The translations under genes were made by a program, and so were the position numbers. The notes under the pieces were generated by a model. It was not told where the DNA came from. It worked only from the letters and a program-made list of their open reading frames with translations, and ran no database searches. Below are positions 1 to 18,037 of a stretch of 24,801 nt of DNA, piece after piece; the first letter of the stretch is position 1, and each line of letters starts with the position of its first letter. Where the stretch lies: the IMG/VR virus record IMGVR_UViG_3300020450_000088, positions 1 to 24,801 of that record; one strand, given 5' to 3'. This DNA comes from a virus.

Positions 1-1040
1 AGCTGTTCAAATATTATTTCTTCTACAAATATTAACTCAGGCTCTTCAAAAGTGTCATACTCAAATTCAAATACATATTCTTCAAAGACTTCAGGCTCTT
101 CAAAAGTGTCATACATGTCATACTCTTCTTGATAACCATAATCAAAGTCTTCTTCAAAGTAAGCTACTGAATTTTCTTGTCTATAACCTTGACAGAATGG
201 TGCATATTGTGGGTCTAAATCACATTGCAGGTCATCATAGGCTTCCCAATAGTAAGGACATGATTCAGAATATAACTGGTCTATATCACATTGTTGTGTT
301 TGATATGCGTCAGCATAACCTGTACAACTTGTATCATTTAAAGGATTACTACAATCTATTGGTGTATAATATAAAGAACCACCATTTTCTAAGTCATCGT
401 TTTTATCAGAGTTATTCCAGTCATAATTGTAACAACTTGAAGTGTTGGTAGTTCCTGTATTACATTCATCGTGATAATAATAGGTGTATATTTCATTTGA
501 TTTACCTTGCTCACCTATCAAAACATCATGGTTGATAACATCTAACTCACCATATCTAAACTCATAAGAGTCATTGTTCCAAAGTATAACCTCAAAACTA
601 TTATCAGATGAACGATTATATTCACGCATGTCATACCAACCAAAGACTGCTTTATCATCAAAGTTCTTGGCTAACATTTTAGAGTTACCATCTCTAATAA
701 GGTCAGTCCAAAATGGAAAAAGAGTATAGTTGTATTGTGGAAGTGGGTCAGGTGTATAATCACCACAATAATTATTGTAATTTACATTACCTGTACCTAA
801 TCCAAAGTGAAGACATCCGTTGGTAGCCATACGAGCAGATGTAAAAGATTCTCCATAAAAATCAAAAGTAAAATCTAAATTAAAAGCAGACGAAAGCTGG
901 TCATCTCCAGAGTTTAGATTGGTTACATTGGATAGATTAGTAAGGTCTATTAAAGACTGATTGCCTTCATAGATATACTCACTAAAGACATTAAGACTTA
1001 GTAGACACGCTACTGCGTAGCATAAAATTCTTTTTTGCAT
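1..1040 (-). CDS. Secreted NIDO-like, cysteine-repeat protein (3' end outside window)
   Basis: An open frame starts at ATG 1038-1040 and stays open for 346 codons to the window edge, so the C-terminus is missing. Residues 1-20 look like a signal peptide: KR, then a hydrophobic run ending near VFS. Residues 50-180 resemble a NIDO (nidogen-like) domain, with ARMATNGCLHFG at 69-80 and LFPFWTDL at 107-114, which match the usual 'NG.i.FG ... PFW.D' signature. Residues 229-285 hold cysteines at 230, 239, 251, 261, 273 and 283, forming three tandem C-x8/9-C units about 22 residues apart. From 294 onward the protein is acidic and aromatic (EE, F, Y), with YDTFEEPE occurring twice. The start overlaps the end of the preceding gene by 31 nt and has only a weak ribosome site. 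Its function is unknown; I recall similar proteins in marine phage sequences. A role at the cell envelope or outside the cell is inferred. Confidence 0.85.
   Translation of the reverse strand, partial: MQKRILCYAVACLLSLNVFSEYIYEGNQSLIDLTNLSNVTNLNSGDDQLSSAFNLDFTFDFYGESFTSARMATNGCLHFGLGTGNVNYNNYCGDYTPDPLPQYNYTLFPFWTDLIRDGNSKMLAKNFDDKAVFGWYDMREYNRSSDNSFEVILWNNDSYEFRYGELDVINHDVLIGEQGKSNEIYTYYYHDECNTGTTNTSSCYNYDWNNSDKNDDLENGGSLYYTPIDCSNPLNDTSCTGYADAYQTQQCDIDQLYSESCPYYWEAYDDLQCDLDPQYAPFCQGYRQENSVAYFEEDFDYGYQEEYDMYDTFEEPEVFEEYVFEFEYDTFEEPELIFVEEIIFEQ
37..114. repeat. 24-nt exact direct repeat inside the acidic tail
   Basis: The same 24 bases occur at 37-60 and 91-114, 54 nt apart (18 codons, frame preserved). 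They encode the two YDTFEEPE copies in the acidic tail of the secreted protein. Identity at the DNA level, including third positions, points to a recent duplication or slippage event. Confidence 0.85.
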
Positions 1041-2098
1041 TGTCTTTTAGTTTTAGTTTTAGCTGTATAGGTTTTTTTTACTAACCCAGCTACATCTTTA
1101 TTTATATTATCTCTGTTAGGATTTTTGTCGTATGTACATTCTTTTATAAAAAGTTTTAATTGTTCTTTAGCATCAGGTCTTTTAGATTTATTTTCTGACC
1201 AAGCTTTAGCAGCTTCTTTACCTATCTTACCTTGATAAGGGCAAGGAGTACCAGCCATTTCCATAGCCTTAAATACTCTAGGGTCTTGACATAATATTGA
1301 AACTGAAGCTACTTTCATACCAGTATCATAAAGATACTTAGAAAGTTTTAATCGTTCACAGTTAGTATCAGTAACTGTTCTTCCTGTAGAGATACCAAAT
1401 ACTTGTCCTTGATAAGCACCAGAACGACCAACAGTACAAAGGTCTTGAGAGTAAGACATAATACTAGGTGCTATAGCAGAAGCAGGAGGTGCTTTACTTT
1501 TTATTTCTTGTCTAATTGTTTGTGTTGAGTTAGACTCATTAATATTTCTATTTGTATTATCAGATGTTGTATTGTTATTGTTGTTATTAGTATTATTAGT
1601 AGTAACATTAGAATCTGAAGTAGACTGATTAATATTTGTATTATTATTAGTATTGGTATTATTACTAGTAGAAGTACTATTATTATTTACATTTTGATTT
1701 ACTGTAGAGTTTACAGTAGAGTTAGATGTAGATGTAGATGTGTTAACATTGTTATTATTATTGGTGTTAGTACTAGTAGATGTGGAAGTATTAGTATTGT
1801 TATTTGTATTAGTTGATGTATTAACATTAGTATTATTATTAGTATTTGTGTTAGTATTTGTATTAGTGTTAGTATTTGTATTAGTGTTAGTATTAGTATT
1901 TGTATTTGTATTATTGTTAGTATTATTATTAGTGTTAGTATTTGTAGTAGTTGTATTATTAGTAGTAGTTAAATTATTATCTTCACAATACTGTGTACCA
2001 GCATCACAGTCATCTGCACTTGCAGCAAAGGATAACGCTATTAAAAATAGTATTAGTAATGGTCCAAAAAAATTTCTATTTATTTCGCCTTTTGACAT
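1010..2098 (-). CDS. Secreted Asn/Thr/Ser-repeat protein with Cys-containing C-terminal domain
   Basis: This 362-aa protein begins with a classic signal peptide (hydrophobic FFGPLLILFLIALSFAASA, with an AxA cleavage motif near residue 28). Residues about 31-40 (CDAGTQYCED) carry a cysteine pair. Residues about 41-192 are almost entirely Asn, Thr and Ser, largely alternating NT. The last ~160 residues form an ordinary-looking domain with six cysteines, including GRSGAYQGQVFGIS, LYDTGMKVASVSILCQDPRVF and AGTPCPYQGKIG, which I recall as a conserved marine-phage domain of unknown function. The end is strongly basic. A good AAAGGAGA ribosome site precedes the start. It follows the holin-like gene and overlaps the next secreted gene. 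Its function is unknown. The repeat could be an extended, exposed linker or stalk, and its length probably varies between relatives. Confidence 0.85.
   Translation of the reverse strand: MSKGEINRNFFGPLLILFLIALSFAASADDCDAGTQYCEDNNLTTTNNTTTTNTNTNNNTNNNTNTNTNTNTNTNTNTNTNTNTNTNNNTNVNTSTNTNNNTNTSTSTSTNTNNNNNVNTSTSTSNSTVNSTVNQNVNNNSTSTSNNTNTNNNTNINQSTSDSNVTTNNTNNNNNNTTSDNTNRNINESNSTQTIRQEIKSKAPPASAIAPSIMSYSQDLCTVGRSGAYQGQVFGISTGRTVTDTNCERLKLSKYLYDTGMKVASVSILCQDPRVFKAMEMAGTPCPYQGKIGKEAAKAWSENKSKRPDAKEQLKLFIKECTYDKNPNRDNINKDVAGLVKKTYTAKTKTKRQCKKEFYATQ
1523..1978 (-). repeat. Low-complexity Asn/Thr/Ser-coding hexanucleotide tract
   Basis: About 450 bases consist mostly of short units encoding Asn-Thr, Asn-Asn or Ser-Thr; on the plus strand this reads as runs of TTAGTA, TTTGTA and TTAGTG. 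The most regular section is about 1840-1915. Boundaries are approximate. Such tracts tend to change length in multiples of six without breaking the frame. Confidence 0.8.
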
Positions 2099-2121: not shown

Positions 2122-2562
2122 TTATCTTCCTTTTGCTAAACTACCACCAAAGTACATACCTATAATGGCTGATACTAAGTTGGTGTCTAATTGTGTAATT
2201 ACAAGACCTTGGAATGTAACCCATTCAAATATTTCTCTACCTACTCTAAACAATCCTCCGGGATTCCATTGTGTATAACCTACAGTAACACTTACATCAG
2301 GATAATATACAGCTACAAGTTTAGGGAAAAGAACAATAGCAAATACAGAAGTAAGTGCAATAATTCTTCTAGTCCATGCAAAACCTTTGTCTTTTAAACC
2401 ATGGTCAAGTGATTGTTTTTTAGCTTTAATATCAAACTCACCACGAGTTATAAGAAGTTTTTCATTCTCTGCTTTAGCTTTACGACTTTCAGCCCAGATG
2501 CTCATAACTCCACCAAGCACAGTTGATGCTAACATAGTTATTATTTCAAATGGAAAACCCAT
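2122..2562 (-). CDS. Holin-like small membrane protein
   Basis: This 146-aa protein has a hydrophobic N-terminal segment (about 5-23, with a GG turn), a long charged and probably helical stretch (24-62, rich in K and E), a second strong membrane segment (about 66-86, RRIIALTSVFAIVLFPKLVAV) and a third weaker one (about 115-140, containing SAIIGMYFGGSLA). It ends in basic KGR. The size and two to three membrane spans fit a holin, as does its place right after the gene carrying the wall-degrading domain. I recall similar proteins in marine phages, but the holin role is inferred. It starts 1 nt after the stop of the polyvalent gene and has no clear ribosome site, so translational coupling is likely. 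It could instead be a structural membrane protein. Confidence 0.75.
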   Translation of the reverse strand: MGFPFEIITMLASTVLGGVMSIWAESRKAKAENEKLLITRGEFDIKAKKQSLDHGLKDKGFAWTRRIIALTSVFAIVLFPKLVAVYYPDVSVTVGYTQWNPGGLFRVGREIFEWVTFQGLVITQLDTNLVSAIIGMYFGGSLAKGR

Positions 2563-2563
2563 A

Positions 2564-5500
2564 TTAATCTATTATTAATCTACCTAACTGTTCAGCAATT
2601 TTTTTGGATGCATTTATTCGTCTATCTAAATGAGGAATACCGGGTTTTTCAAATACTTCCATAAAAACTTTAGTTGTTTCTTCTATATCACCTTTTTTAA
2701 AACTTTCAATAAGTTTTTCTCTTTCATCACTACCTAACATTTTACCATCAAAATTAGCATAAGTATCTGTGCCTTGTATTACATCATTTATATATTCAAT
2801 ATGACTATCTAAAGAATCTTTTTTATTATTATGACTTAAATAATCAAAATAATAATCATTCATAAAATCAAATTGTGCTATACCATATCCTTTTTTAGGT
2901 TTACCTATATCTTCTGATGTTTTTAATTTTTTAGTAGCTTTATTTATCACACCTTTTTTTATATCTTCTTCTGTATAAACTAAAGGATTACCTTCAAGTT
3001 CTCCTTGAATAATATCATATCTAAAAGTATCTCCTGATTCTACAGAAAAATTACCTAACATTCCTATTACAGCTTCTGGTCTATATCCAAACTCATTAGT
3101 AAATCTATTATAGATATAATCTCTATTTGAATTAGAATTTTTTGTAGTTACATCAGCACCTTCTTGAAAACCAAGCCTAGTCATTTGTTCAGAATATGGT
3201 ACTCCTGTATTAGGGTCTACTCTATCTGCAGGGTTTTCTTTAGTATTAGGAACATCAAATGTACCTGTTACTAATCCACCCGTAGCAAAACTTCTAACTC
3301 CAAGTTTTAATATTTTTTCTCTAAGTTCTGGAGTAATTATAATAGTATTAACTTTGTACATTTCTTCTCTTTTAATATAATTTTTTAAGTTTTCTCCAAA
3401 TAATTCTTCTCTAATTTGGTCCATCATTTCTCTATTTTCTTGATACAAATCTATTGGATTAGTACCGTCTTTATCCATTAAATCATTTTTATCTATTTGT
3501 AATTTTTCAAATGTTCCACCATATTCTTCTGCTAGTTCTTTCATATAGTTAGGAATATTTTTATCATATAAAGGTCTTGTATATTTTGCTTGACTTATCC
3601 CATATCTGTTTTGTATAATGTCTCCTTGAACTACTGACAAAGCATCTTGACCATTTTTTACAGCAGCTAATAATTCTCTTTCTAATATTCTTTTATAGAA
3701 CTTTTTAGTTATTGGATTTTTAGGAAGAAGATTTTCTGGATATCCATATTTTATTTTATTTGTTTTAACTGATTCTTTTAAAGAGTTTAAATCTTTAATT
3801 AATTTAGAAGTAATACTTTTTGCATAATTCTCTGATGCTAACTCATTAGTTCCTACTTCTATTTCAGGTGTATTTTTAAATATGTTTTCATCTATTGTGT
3901 TTAAAGGTGTTTGTCCTAGTATACCATTAGTAATTTTTTTTGTGCCACCTTCTCTGGCTTTGTCTAATTTTATTAAATCAGAAAAATCTATATAATTTAA
4001 TTCGTTATATTCTTGAAATGTTTTTGGATTTGTATAATCAAATTTTGTTTTTAAAAAGTCTATTTTATCATCAATAGCTTCTAGAATTATATTCATTTCA
4101 TCAAATATTTCTTTAGCTAATTTTTCATTTTTATCAGTCTTTATACCATAGTCGTAAAGCCTAGTATAATAATCACTTTGAAGTTCTTCTATGTTTCTAG
4201 AACTAATAGTTCCTACATCACCTTTTCTTAATCTTCTATCTTTTGATACTGCATGTCCAAATTGAGTTAACTCATCATTTCCTGAAAAATGAAAACCTGA
4301 AACTGAAAGCTCTTCAACTTTTCTACCTTGTACATTATAAATAGTTTCTCTATAATTTTTTCCTCCGGGTGAATTATCATCAATAGAATTAAATAATTTA
4401 ACATCATAATCTGCTCCAAAATCTGCTATTAAATCATTCTCTTGTAGAAACATTTGCATTTGAATTTTTGCTTCTGCAGGACTTCGTATATCGCCCATAC
4501 TTTCTGCTATAATTTCGCTATCAAATAATAAATTTTTTATTTTTTCATCTTGAGAACTAATTTTGTAACCAATGTCTTGATTACCGTATGCATATAAATT
4601 TAAATCTCTATCTATTTTATCTATAAAATCATCACCACCTAATGCTCTTTCAACATCAGATAAATTTACTTTTATTACTTCAATATCTTTTTTACCAAAC
4701 AATACATCAAGTTGTTTTTTAACAGTAGTGTCTGTAGATTTACCTAATCCTTCAAATTTAAAAAAATCATCTTTATTCATAGTATTAGTATCAAATTTTA
4801 AATCTTCTTTTAAACCTGTTGCAGTTCTAACAAAGGGAACTATTTCTAGTCTTCTATCCGATATGTTTTCTGCTATCTCTATACCTGATTCATAAGGGTG
4901 TTCCATTATATATTGTTCTATGTCTAAATAATCCATTTCATCTTTTGTAACTGCTGTACCTTTACCTCTTGTTGCTTCTTTTTTTAAAAACTTAATTAGT
5001 TTAGGTCCTGTCATTCCTGCTGGAGCATCTTCTGCTAAACTTCTAAGTACAGGAGAAACATTACCAAATTTATCCATGTAAAATGATTGTACTAATTCTT
5101 GTAATTCTTCATCAAACTCTGGTGTAATTTCTCCATCTATATTGTAATCACTAGGACCACCTTCCATGTCATCAGCTTTTTTATAAAAGATAGGTTTTAA
5201 ATTATCTCCTAGTTTATTTGTATTTAATTTTCTAGCTAAAAATGAACTAACTTTACCACCAATTCTAAAAGGTTTTCTATCTTTTATTTCTCTTTTTTTA
5301 ATACCTGTTTCTTTTTCTTTTTCTTCTTTTGGAAAAAATTCTCCAGCAGCTTTTCTTACTGCACCTCTAGGTAGTTTTATAGGTTTAGCAGCTTCTTGTA
5401 AAGGAGTATAAGGTTCTCTAACACCTGTATACTCTTCCATAATATCTCCAAGATATCTATCAAAAATATTTTTAGTTCCTGTCAAAGGAGCTTTACGAGC

Positions 5501-8302
5501 TAATGTTTCTAAAAATCCTCTATCATACAATAACATTCCTACAGCATCACCAAGAATAGGACCTCCTGTTCCTACAGCAGCAGTTAAAGGATTTTGTCCA
5601 TAAGCCATACCTTCAACACCTCTAAATAAATATTCTGGTGGACCTAGTAAACCAACACGCTGTATAGCTTTTATATTATCATAAACTTTATCTTCTCCTC
5701 TATCTATTCTAGCTCTTTCTTCTTCACTAGCTCTCCAATAGTTAGTAGCTTTAGCAACATTAGTAGATATAGCAATAAATGCAGCTAGTTTTGGAGCATT
5801 AACTGCTGTATCTGTTATAGTGTTTCTAGCAAAATTTCTTAGTACCGTATTACCGAATACTGTAGGATATCTTAAAAACTGTGTAAATATATCAACTTTA
5901 GGATTAGTCATAAATCTAGGAACATTAGCAAACTCTCTACCTGTTTGTAATATTACACCGTTAGTAAATCTTCCTGCTCCTCTTGTTATATCATTTCTAT
6001 AAAAGTTTGTTTTCCTAGCAGTTTCATTTATATTATCGCCATACTTTTCAATAAATTTTAATCCTTCATCTATGTTTACACCTAAGTCTAATAACTCTCC
6101 TTCAAGTCTTTCTTTAGAATTTTTACTTAAAGTTTTACCAAATGCATTTGTGTTGGTTGAAATTCTTCTTAAGTTTTCCATTATCATATCTTTACCTGTA
6201 GAAAACGCAGCTAACTGTACTGTTTTTGTCCAAGGTATAAGCATGTTGAGTCTATAAAAACCTCTAGCTCCTCTTTTTAAAAATTCGTTTTGTAGTCCTT
6301 CACCATCTAAACGATTTGTTAAATCTGCAACAGCTTCATCTACAGCTAAGAAAACTCTATTCATTTCTTGAACTATCTCATTGTCAGTTAATTTATGTTT
6401 TTCTTTTAGTATTTGACCCATATCTCTCATCAATATGTGTCCTCCATTTTCTATAGCATCTTGCATACCTTTAACTGCAGATGATGTAGGAGCTTTTCCT
6501 AATGCTATAAATGCTTCTGATAATGAAGAAACAGTAGCTAAAGGTAAGTAAGCCATAGCATTAGCTAATTTAGTTCCGTCATATAAAGCTTGAAACTCTT
6601 GTCCTCTAAAATAATCTACTTGACCTGTAATAGATTTGTAAGTATTTATAATTTGTTTTTTATCTCGGGCAGTTAATTGTCTACCAAACTTTTTTAAGTC
6701 TTTATTTATAGGGTCAATAAATCTTTTTACAAATTGTGCTTCATTATCCATTTTAAACATTATTAAATTCTCTGAATCTGTTTTACCCATAACTCTAACA
6801 TCAGAACCTTTTTGTAAAAAATGTATTTTGTGTTCTATAGTTCTAGCAGCATTCATAAAATAATCTGTAGTAACCATGTGTAAATCATTTGTTAAAAATT
6901 CTTTAAATAAATTATCATCTAAGTTTTCAAACTTACGAGCTTGAGTTAATAAATTAGAATGAGAACTATATAGTTCATCTTGTTTATTAAGCATACCTTC
7001 AACAACATCATCTACTTTATCTCTGTCAACAATTCTAAATTTATTTCCGTCTTTATCTGTTCTAAGTCTTGTCAACATTTTTTTAAACTTTTCTGGATTA
7101 TCTTCTATTGCTTGTCTATTCCAACTACGAGGAAAATAATCTGTAATATCTTGAACATTCATACCTGCTTTTATAGCATCATTTCTTATACCATCATAAA
7201 ATTTTCTTAAGTTCTTAGAAACTTGTACTACTTCTTTAGAAGCATTAGGAACTTTACCACCTCTTAAAAGAGTTACTACTTGCTCTCCTTGTTCTACAGA
7301 CATTCTACCTGTTGAGTATAAAGGTCTTATAGCATCTTCATAAGCTTCTTTATAATTACCTCTTCTAAATTGTATATCCTCTGCATAAGAATATCCTAAT
7401 CTTTGTTTAGACCTTTTAGTTAAATCTTTATTAAATTCAGATGTCATTTTTTGACCAAGCAATCTAGAGTTTGGAGAAAACTCTGCAAAGCCTTTTAATA
7501 TCCAAGCAGGACTAGCTATAGTGTTAGCTAAAATTCTATCTTTATATCTTCTAGCTTTAAATGCAAGGTCACTACCTGCTTCTTTTCTATACATATCATT
7601 TGTATAAAGTCTTTCCATTCTATCTTTAAAGAATTGATTTTTGTTTGCAAGACCTCCAAAGACACCACCTGCTAATAAACCTATCGCTGTTGTATTTGCT
7701 AACTCTGGAGCAGAAAAAGCTTTTCTCATCTTTGTATTTACTTCTGCGTTTTGTTTAAAATAATTTTCTGTACCAGTCCAAGTACCAGCTTCAATAGCTG
7801 CTAATCCAGTAGCTTTAGCAGGTGTAATTTTACTAGGTGCTGTGTTTATTTTAGCAATTCCTTTTAAAGCTTGTTGTGCTGCTTTACCTGATGCTATTCT
7901 AGTTGCTAATGTAGTTCCTCCACTTACAGGAGTAAAAAGAACAGAGGCTAAAAGTGTTGGGTCAGAAATCATATCTATTCCAGCATCTTTAATAAATCCA
8001 AGATATTGTTTCATACTTCCCATATCTGCACCATCAAAAGTGCTACGAAGATAAGCATAGTCTTGTTTTTGTTGCTCAGTAAAATTACCAGTATCATTCA
8101 TTCTTTTTAATCCTTTTAAAAGATTAAAATCAGCATCTCTAAAATACTCAAAAATATCATCAGACTGTTCTCCTATAGATGTTAGGAATCTTTCTGATAT
8201 TTCTTGGAATTGTTCGTTGTTTTCTAGGTCATCTAAAGTATAACCTAAACCCAGCCTATCTGGTGTTCCTAAACCTAAAGAACCTCTTGATTTTATAGCC
8301 AT
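2564..8302 (-). CDS. Giant polyvalent/ejection protein with C-terminal lysozyme domain
   Basis: At 1912 aa this is the largest gene here. Residues 1-900 are helical with several apolar stretches (around 108-140, 200-218 and 575-600) and a DYFPRSW motif at 388-394, as in phage polyvalent or internal virion proteins. Residues about 1340-1600 match the pattern of a large polyvalent protein-associated domain: FGHAVSKDRR, then EELQSD at 1372-1377, and later RYG and LYDKNIPNYMKELAEEYGG. A Gly/Pro linker follows, with PADRVDPNTGVPYSEQM at 1691-1707. The C-terminus (about 1730-1910) looks like a phage lysozyme or transglycosylase domain: GMLGNFSVES with probable catalytic Glu1755, and GYGIAQFD at 1805-1812. 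The likely role is to enter the cell with the DNA and open peptidoglycan during ejection. The start lies 1 nt after the upstream stop. The lysozyme call is solid by motif; the role of the rest is inferred. Confidence 0.85.
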   Translation of the reverse strand: MAIKSRGSLGLGTPDRLGLGYTLDDLENNEQFQEISERFLTSIGEQSDDIFEYFRDADFNLLKGLKRMNDTGNFTEQQKQDYAYLRSTFDGADMGSMKQYLGFIKDAGIDMISDPTLLASVLFTPVSGGTTLATRIASGKAAQQALKGIAKINTAPSKITPAKATGLAAIEAGTWTGTENYFKQNAEVNTKMRKAFSAPELANTTAIGLLAGGVFGGLANKNQFFKDRMERLYTNDMYRKEAGSDLAFKARRYKDRILANTIASPAWILKGFAEFSPNSRLLGQKMTSEFNKDLTKRSKQRLGYSYAEDIQFRRGNYKEAYEDAIRPLYSTGRMSVEQGEQVVTLLRGGKVPNASKEVVQVSKNLRKFYDGIRNDAIKAGMNVQDITDYFPRSWNRQAIEDNPEKFKKMLTRLRTDKDGNKFRIVDRDKVDDVVEGMLNKQDELYSSHSNLLTQARKFENLDDNLFKEFLTNDLHMVTTDYFMNAARTIEHKIHFLQKGSDVRVMGKTDSENLIMFKMDNEAQFVKRFIDPINKDLKKFGRQLTARDKKQIINTYKSITGQVDYFRGQEFQALYDGTKLANAMAYLPLATVSSLSEAFIALGKAPTSSAVKGMQDAIENGGHILMRDMGQILKEKHKLTDNEIVQEMNRVFLAVDEAVADLTNRLDGEGLQNEFLKRGARGFYRLNMLIPWTKTVQLAAFSTGKDMIMENLRRISTNTNAFGKTLSKNSKERLEGELLDLGVNIDEGLKFIEKYGDNINETARKTNFYRNDITRGAGRFTNGVILQTGREFANVPRFMTNPKVDIFTQFLRYPTVFGNTVLRNFARNTITDTAVNAPKLAAFIAISTNVAKATNYWRASEEERARIDRGEDKVYDNIKAIQRVGLLGPPEYLFRGVEGMAYGQNPLTAAVGTGGPILGDAVGMLLYDRGFLETLARKAPLTGTKNIFDRYLGDIMEEYTGVREPYTPLQEAAKPIKLPRGAVRKAAGEFFPKEEKEKETGIKKREIKDRKPFRIGGKVSSFLARKLNTNKLGDNLKPIFYKKADDMEGGPSDYNIDGEITPEFDEELQELVQSFYMDKFGNVSPVLRSLAEDAPAGMTGPKLIKFLKKEATRGKGTAVTKDEMDYLDIEQYIMEHPYESGIEIAENISDRRLEIVPFVRTATGLKEDLKFDTNTMNKDDFFKFEGLGKSTDTTVKKQLDVLFGKKDIEVIKVNLSDVERALGGDDFIDKIDRDLNLYAYGNQDIGYKISSQDEKIKNLLFDSEIIAESMGDIRSPAEAKIQMQMFLQENDLIADFGADYDVKLFNSIDDNSPGGKNYRETIYNVQGRKVEELSVSGFHFSGNDELTQFGHAVSKDRRLRKGDVGTISSRNIEELQSDYYTRLYDYGIKTDKNEKLAKEIFDEMNIILEAIDDKIDFLKTKFDYTNPKTFQEYNELNYIDFSDLIKLDKAREGGTKKITNGILGQTPLNTIDENIFKNTPEIEVGTNELASENYAKSITSKLIKDLNSLKESVKTNKIKYGYPENLLPKNPITKKFYKRILERELLAAVKNGQDALSVVQGDIIQNRYGISQAKYTRPLYDKNIPNYMKELAEEYGGTFEKLQIDKNDLMDKDGTNPIDLYQENREMMDQIREELFGENLKNYIKREEMYKVNTIIITPELREKILKLGVRSFATGGLVTGTFDVPNTKENPADRVDPNTGVPYSEQMTRLGFQEGADVTTKNSNSNRDYIYNRFTNEFGYRPEAVIGMLGNFSVESGDTFRYDIIQGELEGNPLVYTEEDIKKGVINKATKKLKTSEDIGKPKKGYGIAQFDFMNDYYFDYLSHNNKKDSLDSHIEYINDVIQGTDTYANFDGKMLGSDEREKLIESFKKGDIEETTKVFMEVFEKPGIPHLDRRINASKKIAEQLGRLIID

Positions 8303-13981: not shown

Positions 13982-16900
13982 TTATAAGTTTGTAACATAT
14001 GTAAATGAAAATCTTAAAAAGTTTCCAGATGAGTTACTAAGGCTTGTATTAGAACTACCTATATATGTTTGTCTGTCTGAATCAAGTTGGATTAAATTTA
14101 AATTTAAATAAGCTGTGTTATAACAACGAACTCCTATTCCTGCAAAGTTAGATACTCCATCCCAATTACCACTAGGATAAAAATAAACATCACCTGCACT
14201 TGAGGGAATACTTGTACCTGCATTAGTAAAGGGTAATGTCATTCTTAAATCACCACTAAATGTACCAAATGCTTTATTATATATATCAACATGTATAGTG
14301 ACTAGCCTACCAATTTTTGTATAATATCCAAGACCATCATTGTTTGCAGTACCACTAGTACTTCCATAAAATAAAGGTGTAAAAGTTCCTTCTTCATAAT
14401 CATCAAGTGCATTAGCTGCTGCTGTATCAGCACCAAATTTTATTCCATCACTATCAAATCTTGCTACTACTGCATTATCAGCTTCAATAACAACTCTTGA
14501 ATTAGACTGAGCATTATCAGAATCAGCACTAATTGACATGTATTCAGCTTCACACAATATGTGATGTTTAAATACATCTCCTACTTTAAAATCAATTCTT
14601 GGAACACTTGCATTAATAGTTAAACTTTTTTGACCACTTAATGCTTTTGGTGTAGTCGTGCCTAGTCCAAGATTTCCTGAATTGTCTAGTTTTGCTTGAA
14701 AAGTATTATTAGTGTAAAAATTTATATCGGCGTCTTCTGCTTGATAAATCATAGCATCGCCTGTTGTATTACCCTCAACACCAACAAAAAACTTATCTGT
14801 ATTATGGTCATTTGCAAATGCTATGTTTGCACCAACTCCTGAACCTGAACCATGTATGTCGATTAAAGTATTACCACCAGTAAATGTACTTTGTCCTATC
14901 GCTAATGTTCCAGCTACTGCAGCGTTTACATCTACATCTAAAGTATCAATATGTGCTGTTCCATCTAAGAATAAATCTTTAAATTCTAGAGAACTTGTAC
15001 CTAAATCTATATCATTATCAGTTGTTGGTTTTAAAACACCATCGGCTAGTACAATCTGTTCAGTACCTCCAATATCAAACCTTATAATATCTTCATCAGA
15101 ACTTTCTTCTACTTGTATTTTAGTATCTCCATCAGCATCTTGAAAAGTTGTAACAGCTACATTAGTAAATGTTACACATTCTACTTTTGTACCAGTAGGA
15201 GGAGCAGCACTAAATGTTAGTGTGCTACCTGATATTGAATAAGTATCTTTATGCTGAACAACGCCATCAATAGTTACAAAAGTTTGATTCTCTGAAGTTG
15301 GAGTTGTGCTAAGAGCTAGTGTAGTGTCTGAACCATCACCAGTCATAGTATCTATAACTGGAGCAGAACCTACAATACCTGCTTCAACTGTAAAAACTTC
15401 TATAACTCTGCTATTTACAGGGGCTGTAGCAAAAGTTAAAGTTGTGCCTGATACAGTATAAACATTGTCTGCTTGATATACACCATCAATAAATACTAAT
15501 AAGTTATCTTCGTTTGATGCACTAATGCTTAATGTAAATGCTGTTGTGCTTCCATCACCTGTAAAAGTATTTTTAGTAAAGGCATTACCAACACTATTTC
15601 CACTACCACCACCACTAGCTGAAGATGCAAAAGTTACAGTATCTCCAGAAGCATTTGTAGTAATAGTCATATTACTTCCAGCTACTAAAGTAAGAGTATC
15701 AGTAGCAGAATCGGCTACTACATCATCTTGTCCAGATACAGATATTGTTTTAAATGCTTCTCCTACTGAACCACCACCTGTAACATTAAAGTCTAATGTT
15801 CCATCTGAGTCTTCATAAGTAACAGTAATGTTAGATTCTGTATTACCAGTTACCATAGCTCCTACAGTATCTTGTATAACCTCTGTTAGGTCTATATTAG
15901 CTGTTCCATCAAATGAAACACCATGTATTGTTCTAGCTGTTTCAAGTGCTGTAGCTGTTGCTGCGTTACCTGTTGTACTTTGATTACCTGAAGTATTTAC
16001 ACCGGGTAAATTAATATTAGCACTACCATCAAAACTTACACCACCAATAGTTCTTGCAGTTGTTAAAGTAGCTGCTGAACCTGTAATATTACTTGATGTT
16101 AAAGCTATTGTACCTGTTGTATTTGGTAAAGTTACTGTAGGATTACCACTAAATGCTGAATGAGCAGGTGCTTGTAGTCTTAGATAATGTGCATTGTTAC
16201 TTTCACAATAAAAATCTATATAAGATTGTGTACCACCATTTTTAATTTTAATAGCACCTTGTTCAATAACTACACCATTTGTAGAGCCACCACCGACTCC
16301 TAATGAGGTTGTTATTTCTGTAGCTGATGGTAAACCTATTGTTACTGTACCTGAACTTTCTGCTACTTCTACTTCGTTAGAAGTTCCAGAGAATGTTAAT
16401 GTACCACCTAATGAAATAGCAGTAGTATTAGAACCATCACTAACTGTTATACTTGAGTTTGATAATTTACTATTAGCAATAGAACCTGCTAACATAGCAT
16501 TAGTAATAACTCCTGAACCTATAACAAAGTCTAGAGTATTATCTGAATCATCATAGGTTACTGATATACCTGTTTCAGTATTAGAGCCTACCATAGCTCC
16601 TACAGTATCACTAATAGTTTCTGCTAGTGTTGTGCCATTTACTGTAATTGCATCAGCTTCTAAAGTACCATCAATATCTACATCTCCTGATATATCTAGT
16701 TCTGTAGCTATTATTTTACTATTAAAAGTTGCAGCTCCTGCTTCTGACATATCAATAGTAAGAGCTGTAAAACCTGAACCTCCATCATTACCTTTTAATT
16801 TAAAATCTTTATCTGCCCCACTTACTGTAAAAGCTGTAGAATCAGCTTCTTTTTGAATAAAACCAAATTGAGTTCCATCATCTGAAAAAGCAATGATACC

Positions 16901-18037
16901 TGTATCAGAATCAAGAGTAATATTTCCACCAACATCTAGTGTAAAAGCTGCACTATCAGAAATAGTAGACCCATCAATAGTAATATCATCAACTGTTAAA
17001 GATGTTAAAGTACCTAAACTTGTTACATTAGTTTGTGCTGCTGTTGATAAAGTTCCTGCTAACTCTCCACTTGAGCCATAAATGACAGCTTTACTATTTA
17101 CAACTGTATTAGCTGTAGAACCATCAAGTAAATTTATTTCTGTTGCTGTACTTGTAACACCATCTAAAATATTTAATTCAGCAGCAGTAGAAGTAACACC
17201 ATCTAAGATATTTAGTTCTGCTGTAGTGCTGGTAACACCATCAAGAATATTAAGTTCGGCTGCTGTACTGGTAACTCCATCAAGAATATTAAGTTCGGCT
17301 GTTGTGGATGTTACACCATCCATTATATTTAATTCTGCAGTAGTTGCAGTTACGCCATCCATGATGTTTAGTTCTGCAGTTGTAGCAGTAACACCATCCA
17401 TAATATTTAGTTCAGCAGCAGTTGCACTTATTGCTGTACCATTAAAGTTTATAGCATCTAAATATGCAACACCGTCAATATAAATATCTTTCCATTGTTT
17501 TGAAGAACTACCTAAATCATGTGTATCATCATCATCAGGTATAATATTAGAATCTACTTCTCCACCAAAAACAATATTATCTGTATCAGCATCACCTAGA
17601 GTTAGTGTACCACCATTAAATGTTGTTGTACCTGTTACTGTAAGATTACCACCTACATCTACATTACCTGTAGTAGTTATAGAATCTATAAATGCATCTT
17701 TAAATCTTAAACTTGTTGTACCTATATCTACATCACTATCTGTTACAGGAACTATAGCACCATCTGCTATATATAGTTGTTGTACTGAACTACTAGATAC
17801 TTCTACATAAAATTCTATATGGTTATTTGTAGTATCTATTAAAACTTTATTGTTTGGAGAAGTTTCTCCTGCATCACCAATTAAACCTATAACTGGTCCA
17901 GAAGCTGCTGTGCCATCGTGTGCGTGTCCTGTTGAGTTGTTAAATGCATTTACTAACTGATTATATTCATTATTGAATAAAGCAGCAGTAATTGTATCTC
18001 CATCTGCAAAAGAACTTTGTCTTGTATATCCTGCCAT
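13982..18037 (-). CDS. Large repetitive tail fibre / receptor-binding protein
   Basis: This 1351-aa Ser/Thr/Gly/Asp-rich beta-type fibre begins with a conserved head (ADGDTITAALFNNEYNQLV and GHAHDGTAASG at about 37-47). Modules of the form 'D.D.G.SS..FKD...DG' occur near residues 112, 182 and 1019. Residues 208-311 hold eight 13-residue repeats of the AELNI(M/L)DGVT type. Residues about 820-960 hold two tandem domains with TGDGS, FIDGV or TIDGV and SG(T/S)TLTF motifs, seen in other phage fibres. The C-terminus has AAANALDDYEEGTFTP (from 1206) and YYTKIGRLVTI, a tip module shared with the 305-aa fibre. It is expected at the tail periphery, binding the host surface. A GGAG site precedes the start. 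No S74 chaperone motif is visible. Confidence 0.9.
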   Translation of the reverse strand: MAGYTRQSSFADGDTITAALFNNEYNQLVNAFNNSTGHAHDGTAASGPVIGLIGDAGETSPNNKVLIDTTNNHIEFYVEVSSSSVQQLYIADGAIVPVTDSDVDIGTTSLRFKDAFIDSITTTGNVDVGGNLTVTGTTTFNGGTLTLGDADTDNIVFGGEVDSNIIPDDDDTHDLGSSSKQWKDIYIDGVAYLDAINFNGTAISATAAELNIMDGVTATTAELNIMDGVTATTAELNIMDGVTSTTAELNILDGVTSTAAELNILDGVTSTTAELNILDGVTSTAAELNILDGVTSTATEINLLDGSTANTVVNSKAVIYGSSGELAGTLSTAAQTNVTSLGTLTSLTVDDITIDGSTISDSAAFTLDVGGNITLDSDTGIIAFSDDGTQFGFIQKEADSTAFTVSGADKDFKLKGNDGGSGFTALTIDMSEAGAATFNSKIIATELDISGDVDIDGTLEADAITVNGTTLAETISDTVGAMVGSNTETGISVTYDDSDNTLDFVIGSGVITNAMLAGSIANSKLSNSSITVSDGSNTTAISLGGTLTFSGTSNEVEVAESSGTVTIGLPSATEITTSLGVGGGSTNGVVIEQGAIKIKNGGTQSYIDFYCESNNAHYLRLQAPAHSAFSGNPTVTLPNTTGTIALTSSNITGSAATLTTARTIGGVSFDGSANINLPGVNTSGNQSTTGNAATATALETARTIHGVSFDGTANIDLTEVIQDTVGAMVTGNTESNITVTYEDSDGTLDFNVTGGGSVGEAFKTISVSGQDDVVADSATDTLTLVAGSNMTITTNASGDTVTFASSASGGGSGNSVGNAFTKNTFTGDGSTTAFTLSISASNEDNLLVFIDGVYQADNVYTVSGTTLTFATAPVNSRVIEVFTVEAGIVGSAPVIDTMTGDGSDTTLALSTTPTSENQTFVTIDGVVQHKDTYSISGSTLTFSAAPPTGTKVECVTFTNVAVTTFQDADGDTKIQVEESSDEDIIRFDIGGTEQIVLADGVLKPTTDNDIDLGTSSLEFKDLFLDGTAHIDTLDVDVNAAVAGTLAIGQSTFTGGNTLIDIHGSGSGVGANIAFANDHNTDKFFVGVEGNTTGDAMIYQAEDADINFYTNNTFQAKLDNSGNLGLGTTTPKALSGQKSLTINASVPRIDFKVGDVFKHHILCEAEYMSISADSDNAQSNSRVVIEADNAVVARFDSDGIKFGADTAAANALDDYEEGTFTPLFYGSTSGTANNDGLGYYTKIGRLVTIHVDIYNKAFGTFSGDLRMTLPFTNAGTSIPSSAGDVYFYPSGNWDGVSNFAGIGVRCYNTAYLNLNLIQLDSDRQTYIGSSNTSLSNSSGNFLRFSFTYVTNL
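14379..14422 (-). repeat. 44-nt exact repeat, copy in large fibre
   Basis: Identical over 44 bases to 18421-18464 and in the same reading frame. It encodes AAANALDDYEEGTFT at the start of the C-terminal tip module. Confidence 0.9.
17105..17416 (-). repeat. Eight 39-nt tandem repeats in the large fibre gene
   Basis: Eight 13-codon units encode (A/T)E(L/I)N(I/L)(M/L)DG(V/S)T plus three residues. The last unit is degenerate (TEINLLDGSTANT). Two adjacent copies share 25 identical bases at 17238 and 17277, while others differ at many silent sites. Confidence 0.9.

Follow-up and report, generated by a model that had tools for sequence, protein, structure and literature searches.

A predicted exported protein with a NIDO-related domain, a possible exchangeable head of a three-gene envelope module in marine phages of SAR11-type hosts

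SAR11 phages rank among the sea's most abundant viruses. In marine phages, hypervariable 'carbohydrate-binding' genes have so far been interpreted as virion host-recognition parts. Carbohydrate-type genes of this kind are already known as single genes. They lie in the middle slot of a three-gene set, here termed A-B-C, of which we found no description in open-access papers and which appears to be previously undescribed as a module. The carbohydrate-type pelagiphage protein (HTVC033P gp45, BAQ94057) shares this middle slot, a signal peptide and an acidic stalk with the protein studied here, NIDO-B, but its N-terminal domain is unrelated to that of NIDO-B (hhalign Prob 0.2) and its C-terminal domain shows no detectable relation either (Prob 5); a C-terminal motif common to the two proteins was a first impression, dropped at this value. 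The module of HTVC115P (gp54-gp53 and gp52/gp49) resembles the one described below in its A domain (58% identical), in the C-terminal domain of B (related, Prob 91, E 1e-6) and in a coiled-coil membrane protein ending in ENPLSNMK, as C. It differs in that its B head is unrelated to NIDO and in its location within the tail-fibre region.

A further described system is the pelagiphage curli/type VIII secretion (T8SS) cluster, which is, like A-B-C, exported, possibly adhesive, borne by SAR11 phages and common to several phage families. It has been surveyed among pelagiphages (PMC9599517), and 'sibling capture' has been proposed for the curli genes of pelagimyophages (PMC7029224). A link between curli and NIDO-B was dropped because none of 22 NIDO phage records, some of which may be fragments, contained CsgG, the control being positive in 4 known genomes.

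The window, i.e. the whole stretch of DNA analysed, is a complete IMG/VR virus record (IMGVR_UViG_3300020450_000088) of exactly 24,801 bases, with a GC content of 29-35%. The nearest named relatives of this phage are the Pelagibacter phages HTVC115P and HTVC103P (capsid identity 61% and 51%, respectively). Gene B is a minus-strand ORF (3..1040) that encodes the first 346 aa of the protein and is open at the contig end, where the gene is cut. The first-pass annotation had considered a frame break just beyond this edge; full-length relatives rule it out, since the B frame of the relative L066, 97% identical, is open for 669 aa, and the gene measures about 650-780 aa in near relatives. At full length, B consists of a signal peptide, a NIDO-type domain, Cys repeats, a Glu-rich stalk, a Ser/Thr-rich part and a conserved C-terminal domain of ~75 residues, in this order. 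The same annotation had proposed an exported phage protein made of a signal peptide, a NIDO-like section, a three-unit cysteine-pair repeat and an acidic aromatic tail, all of which are borne out below, and had called its export from a late operon unusual. The protein is no isolated oddity: at least 577 IMG/VR stretches encode the domain in a scan with the NIDO-domain alignment (a first pattern set had yielded 213 B relatives), and B belongs to a conserved A-B-C module that has its counterpart, with other B heads, in cultured SAR11 phages. NIDO-B is absent from annotated phage records, and the family is thus known solely from uncultured phages. A cellular origin was rejected, as no B relative was found in 84,980 species genomes.

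The predicted signal peptide of B occupies about residues 1-21 (978..1040, minus strand) and is recognised from a family in which mutually dissimilar, hydrophobic N-termini precede a single conserved mature start. The B family displays 96 distinct N-termini (a few of which stem from truncated frames picked up by the regular expression), nearly all hydrophobic and each leading into the mature start Y[IV][YP]E; position -1, as predicted, is S, A or G in 128 of 135. Such a pattern, in which unrelated signal peptides are exchanged and the cleavage site is kept, is that expected from selection for export; on this family pattern, we consider the predicted export of B well supported. Because A and B both have signal peptides, it is also plausible that virion assembly has no need for B. 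No lipobox was noticed by eye in A or B, and no outer-membrane anchor or secretion signal was recognised in B. Given the lack of a visible outer-membrane anchor and of CsgG in the sampled NIDO phages, any display of B before lysis is putative, and the protein might stay periplasmic.

The NIDO-type domain, as modelled from Pfam, profile-profile and PDB matches, spans residues 22-224 (369..977, minus strand), and its core, about residues 37-180 (501-932, minus strand), is the part matched to bacterial NIDO domains by profile comparison. NIDO (nidogen-like) domains are adhesion domains of animals and bacteria. As a single sequence, B matches Pfam NIDO (PF06119) with E 0.018, so that the HMM search suggested with the initial NIDO call did return the family, but its score of 15.5 bits stays under the gathering cut-off of 25 bits. 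In a diverse family set, NIDO is the Pfam family matched by most members (7/17, best E 0.0017); cathepsin and CPW_WPC matches were weak and not significant. We then compared by hhalign 42 phage domains with bacterial PF06119 domains, taken from proteins that the Pfam NIDO model matched in 492 genomes, and obtained Prob 99.3 and E 4e-20 over 136 columns, against Prob 0.1-2.8 for the reversed alignment and five column shuffles, which excludes a chance NIDO-like motif. Note that the bacterial domains were excised with a loose motif, which ties their selection partly to the pattern, a bias common to the controls. Searched against the PDB, the phage NIDO profile retrieved one sequence, chain 8gl6_D, named RemA (8GL6; E 6.9e-9, residues 44-172). 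RemA is a gliding adhesin, and the substrate RemZ is a RemA homologue (PMC10994853, the paper on the 8GL6 structure). With the bacterial NIDO proteins and RemA, B shares export and a homologous core (DD-x-S / FxF-YG / NG-x-L-x-F / PFW-x-D / SFEV-x-L-W / RYG); it differs from them in being phage-encoded, in the Cys repeats and the acidic and Ser/Thr-rich stalks that follow the domain, and in its score under the gathering threshold; no type 9 secretion tail was noticed in it. AlphaFold2, run on the NIDO and Cys region with a shallow alignment, gave a pLDDT of 35.5, a value too low to inform on the fold. From the strong profile-profile match and the RemA chain, we term the domain NIDO-related by homology of its core, as judged from sequence comparison; it is not filed as a Pfam member because the single-sequence score lies under the curated cut-off.

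The domain is followed by six cysteines at residues 230, 239, 251, 261, 273 and 283 (192..353, minus strand), arranged as C-x8-C, C-x9-C and C-x9-C with a repeat unit of about 21-22 residues. Relatives differ in how many pairs they have (two in 22 proteins, three in 107, four in 3 and six in 2), and the units are therefore a real repeat rather than a chance spacing. Residues 290-346 (3..173, minus strand) form the start of the acidic, aromatic stalk, which in L066 continues for about 150 residues with 36% Glu; beyond the window edge, relatives run unbroken into the Ser/Thr-rich and conserved C-terminal parts.

Protein A (1010..2098, minus strand; 362 aa) is composed of a signal peptide, an N/T-rich repeat, in which N and T make up 75% of residues 41-200, and a conserved C-terminal Cys domain of about 105 aa (1166..1480, minus strand) common to the A proteins of cultured SAR11 and Roseobacter phages. 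It matches phrog_20531, of unknown function (E 3e-14), and Pfam does not call it a curlin. The end of gene A overlaps the start of gene B by 31 nt (1010..1040, minus strand), an arrangement in which translational coupling is possible. The predicted structure of the Cys domain, of moderate quality (pLDDT 73.5), is a beta hairpin plus helices; it has no PDB match, and its BFVD matches are uncharacterised phage proteins alone. In the 84,980 species genomes, relatives of A occur on 22 contigs only, mostly MAG contigs of phage-like appearance. An A-type layout (signal peptide, N/Q/G-rich repeats, Cys domain) is also present in the N4-like Achromobacter phage JWAlpha (JJJB_0025; L170, 4455-5369), whose match to A is weak (E 9e-3); the A family could thus extend beyond marine phages. 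Upstream of the module, a small hydrophobic, putatively holin-like protein (2122..2562, minus strand; phrog_38283, unknown function) is encoded; genes of this type neighbour the module in many relatives and were not counted within it.

The order of the module is A, then B, then C. Gene A lies directly upstream of NIDO-B in 163 of 167 distinct loci, and C follows B at a distance of at most three genes in 135 of 139. In the phage of the window, C falls outside the sequence, and it is present beside the 97% identical B of L066. Protein C combines one N-terminal hydrophobic (transmembrane) segment with a predicted coiled coil, a layout that, we presume, resembles the lambda Rz-type inner-membrane spanin. 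Unlike such a spanin, C ends in the conserved NPL tail, and no outer-membrane lipoprotein partner was noticed. Between phage groups, C proteins are only 25-29% identical, yet they retain the final residues NPL[AS]x, as does the 122-aa protein encoded after B in L066, a conservation suggestive of a short docking motif. A search of annotated phages using the Cys domain of A uncovered related modules in the cultured phages HTVC202P (gp24-26), Mosig (Mosig_00202-00200), HTVC033P (gp46-44), Baldr (genes 1, 3 and 4), HTVC023P (gp45, 46 and 48) and HTVC115P (gp54, gp53 and gp52/gp49), and in the uncultured MedDCM S28-C10. In the Roseobacter phages CRP-207 and CRP-810, A stands beside a lysozyme and the second gene is different. 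The three genes thus stay together in phages that are unrelated to one another, and the position of the module differs among these.

We then compared the B heads carried by these modules. In the module-bearing named phages, the A domain is 55-61% identical to that of the window, whereas forced alignments of their N-terminal B domains with window B give 20-29%, around the shuffled baseline of 24%, and the NIDO profile does not match the three other B head types (Prob 0.1-0.6). NIDO-B is present in phages with a HTVC115P-like capsid and in others with a HTVC023P-like capsid. HTVC033P, HTVC202P, Baldr and MedDCM S28-C10 share a carbohydrate-type head at 56-77% identity; within the annotated phage collection, this head occurs only in the B slot. 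With the same head types in different phages and capsid types, and A conserved where heads differ, these data indicate that heads move between phage lineages.

The reading we favour, with confidence a little short of even, assigns to B the role of an exchangeable ligand-binding head within a three-gene envelope module in marine phages of SAR11-type hosts. The layout of B, with an exported head, disulfide-type repeats, a long stalk, a conserved C-terminal domain and secreted and membrane partners, fits a binder that the infected cell produces and that acts at the surface, and the module probably works at the cell surface and not within the virion. In the infected cell, A and B would cross via Sec into the periplasm, and C would be anchored in the inner membrane, its coiled coil pointing outward. 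The C-terminal domain of B would dock on A or C, and its acidic and Ser/Thr-rich parts would form a long stalk; the NIDO head and the Cys repeats would be exposed at the infected-cell surface or released at lysis, where the head could bind a surface glycan or protein. The role of B (receptor masking, cell capture or lysis) can only be inferred. The most likely benefit would be that the phage's own receptor is masked or decoyed, with less superinfection and less loss of progeny to cell debris, a choice we make because the heads vary as receptor-binding parts do; capture of neighbouring cells would come second. The envelope reading is weakened by the low identity of C between phage groups, by the undetectable relation between the C-terminal domains of carbohydrate-type B and NIDO-B, and by the missing outer-membrane anchor and CsgG. 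In its widest and more tentative form, the proposal is that SAR11 phages possess an undescribed envelope module, an exported stalked binder with swappable heads (NIDO, carbohydrate-binding and others) that remodels the infected-cell surface or coats debris, evolving like a receptor-binding protein and working outside the virion.

An alternative, which we hold to be unlikely, is that B is a receptor-binding or decoration protein of the virion, its N-terminal hydrophobic segment being unused for export. Genes for a 'putative carbohydrate binding domain containing protein', which include the carbohydrate-type B-slot genes, were the most frequent identifiable genes of metaviromic islands and have been interpreted as receptor-binding or host-recognition genes (PMC3909814). 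In HTVC115P the tail-fibre region contains the module, and in MedDCM S28-C10 the module comes after a tail fibre. Our literature search turned up no proteome of a phage of this type. Against a virion role stand the cleavable-type signal peptides of A and B, which have been exchanged for numerous unrelated sequences without loss of the cleavage site, the disulfide-type Cys pattern of B, the membrane protein C as a partner, and the varying position of the module among phages.

It is rather improbable that A-B-C is a lysis apparatus, with C acting like an inner-membrane spanin and A and B as its periplasmic and outer partners. Such an apparatus would fit the spanin-like layout of C and several neighbourhoods, the module coming after lysozyme and holin-like genes in HTVC115P-like relatives and HTVC033P, an M15 peptidase following it in HTVC023P, and a lysozyme following A in CRP-207 and CRP-810; however, of 35 loci with complete flanks, only 10 have a lysis enzyme at most six genes away (limited reference set), leaving adjacency to lysis genes unsupported as a universal rule. 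No lipoprotein partner was noticed in the module, and a lysis function gives no reason for exchangeable ligand-binding heads.

We also give little credence to an adhesive cell-capture module, in which infected cells would show N/T-rich A fibres with adhesive B heads. The composition of the A repeat (75% N+T), the NIDO relatives in surface adhesins and the precedent of the pelagiphage curli genes (PMC7029224; PMC9599517) speak for capture, whereas the sampled NIDO phages have no curli pore and no clumping was observed with the curli-bearing phage Melnitz (PMC9004378). A periplasmic superinfection sensor that controls when lysis occurs, with a role like that of T4 RI, is highly improbable: holin and lysozyme genes are close by in part of the phages and a variable head could track variable ligands, but B has no similarity to RI and is far larger than required.

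If the envelope reading, with export of B and action at the infected-cell envelope, is true, part of the diversity of the islands would consist of post-infection effects on the cell surface, such as superinfection exclusion, debris masking or cell capture. The conserved three-gene set with a swapped head domain points to an undescribed phage action on the cell surface, and the presence of the module in cultured SAR11 phages makes the envelope reading directly testable.

Some features of the surrounding genes are recorded here. A gene for a NifU_N/IscU-like iron-sulfur scaffold (PF01592, E 8e-38) directly follows the module in several related phages, including L021 and L039/G004 (37279-37680), and an Hsp20-type small heat-shock gene lies near the module in L016 and similar loci and occurs also in HTVC115P and HTVC103P. 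In the window, positions 2564-8302 (minus strand) encode a 1912-aa protein, the last 200 residues of which match the phage tail lysozyme (PF18013, E 5e-19); many relatives carry, in place of this tail-lysozyme end, a separate T4-type lysozyme gene after the large protein. Further along, positions 13982-18037 (minus strand) encode a tail-fibre-like protein of 1351 aa with tandem units of 11-12 residues (TAELNIMDGVT / TAELNILDGVT).
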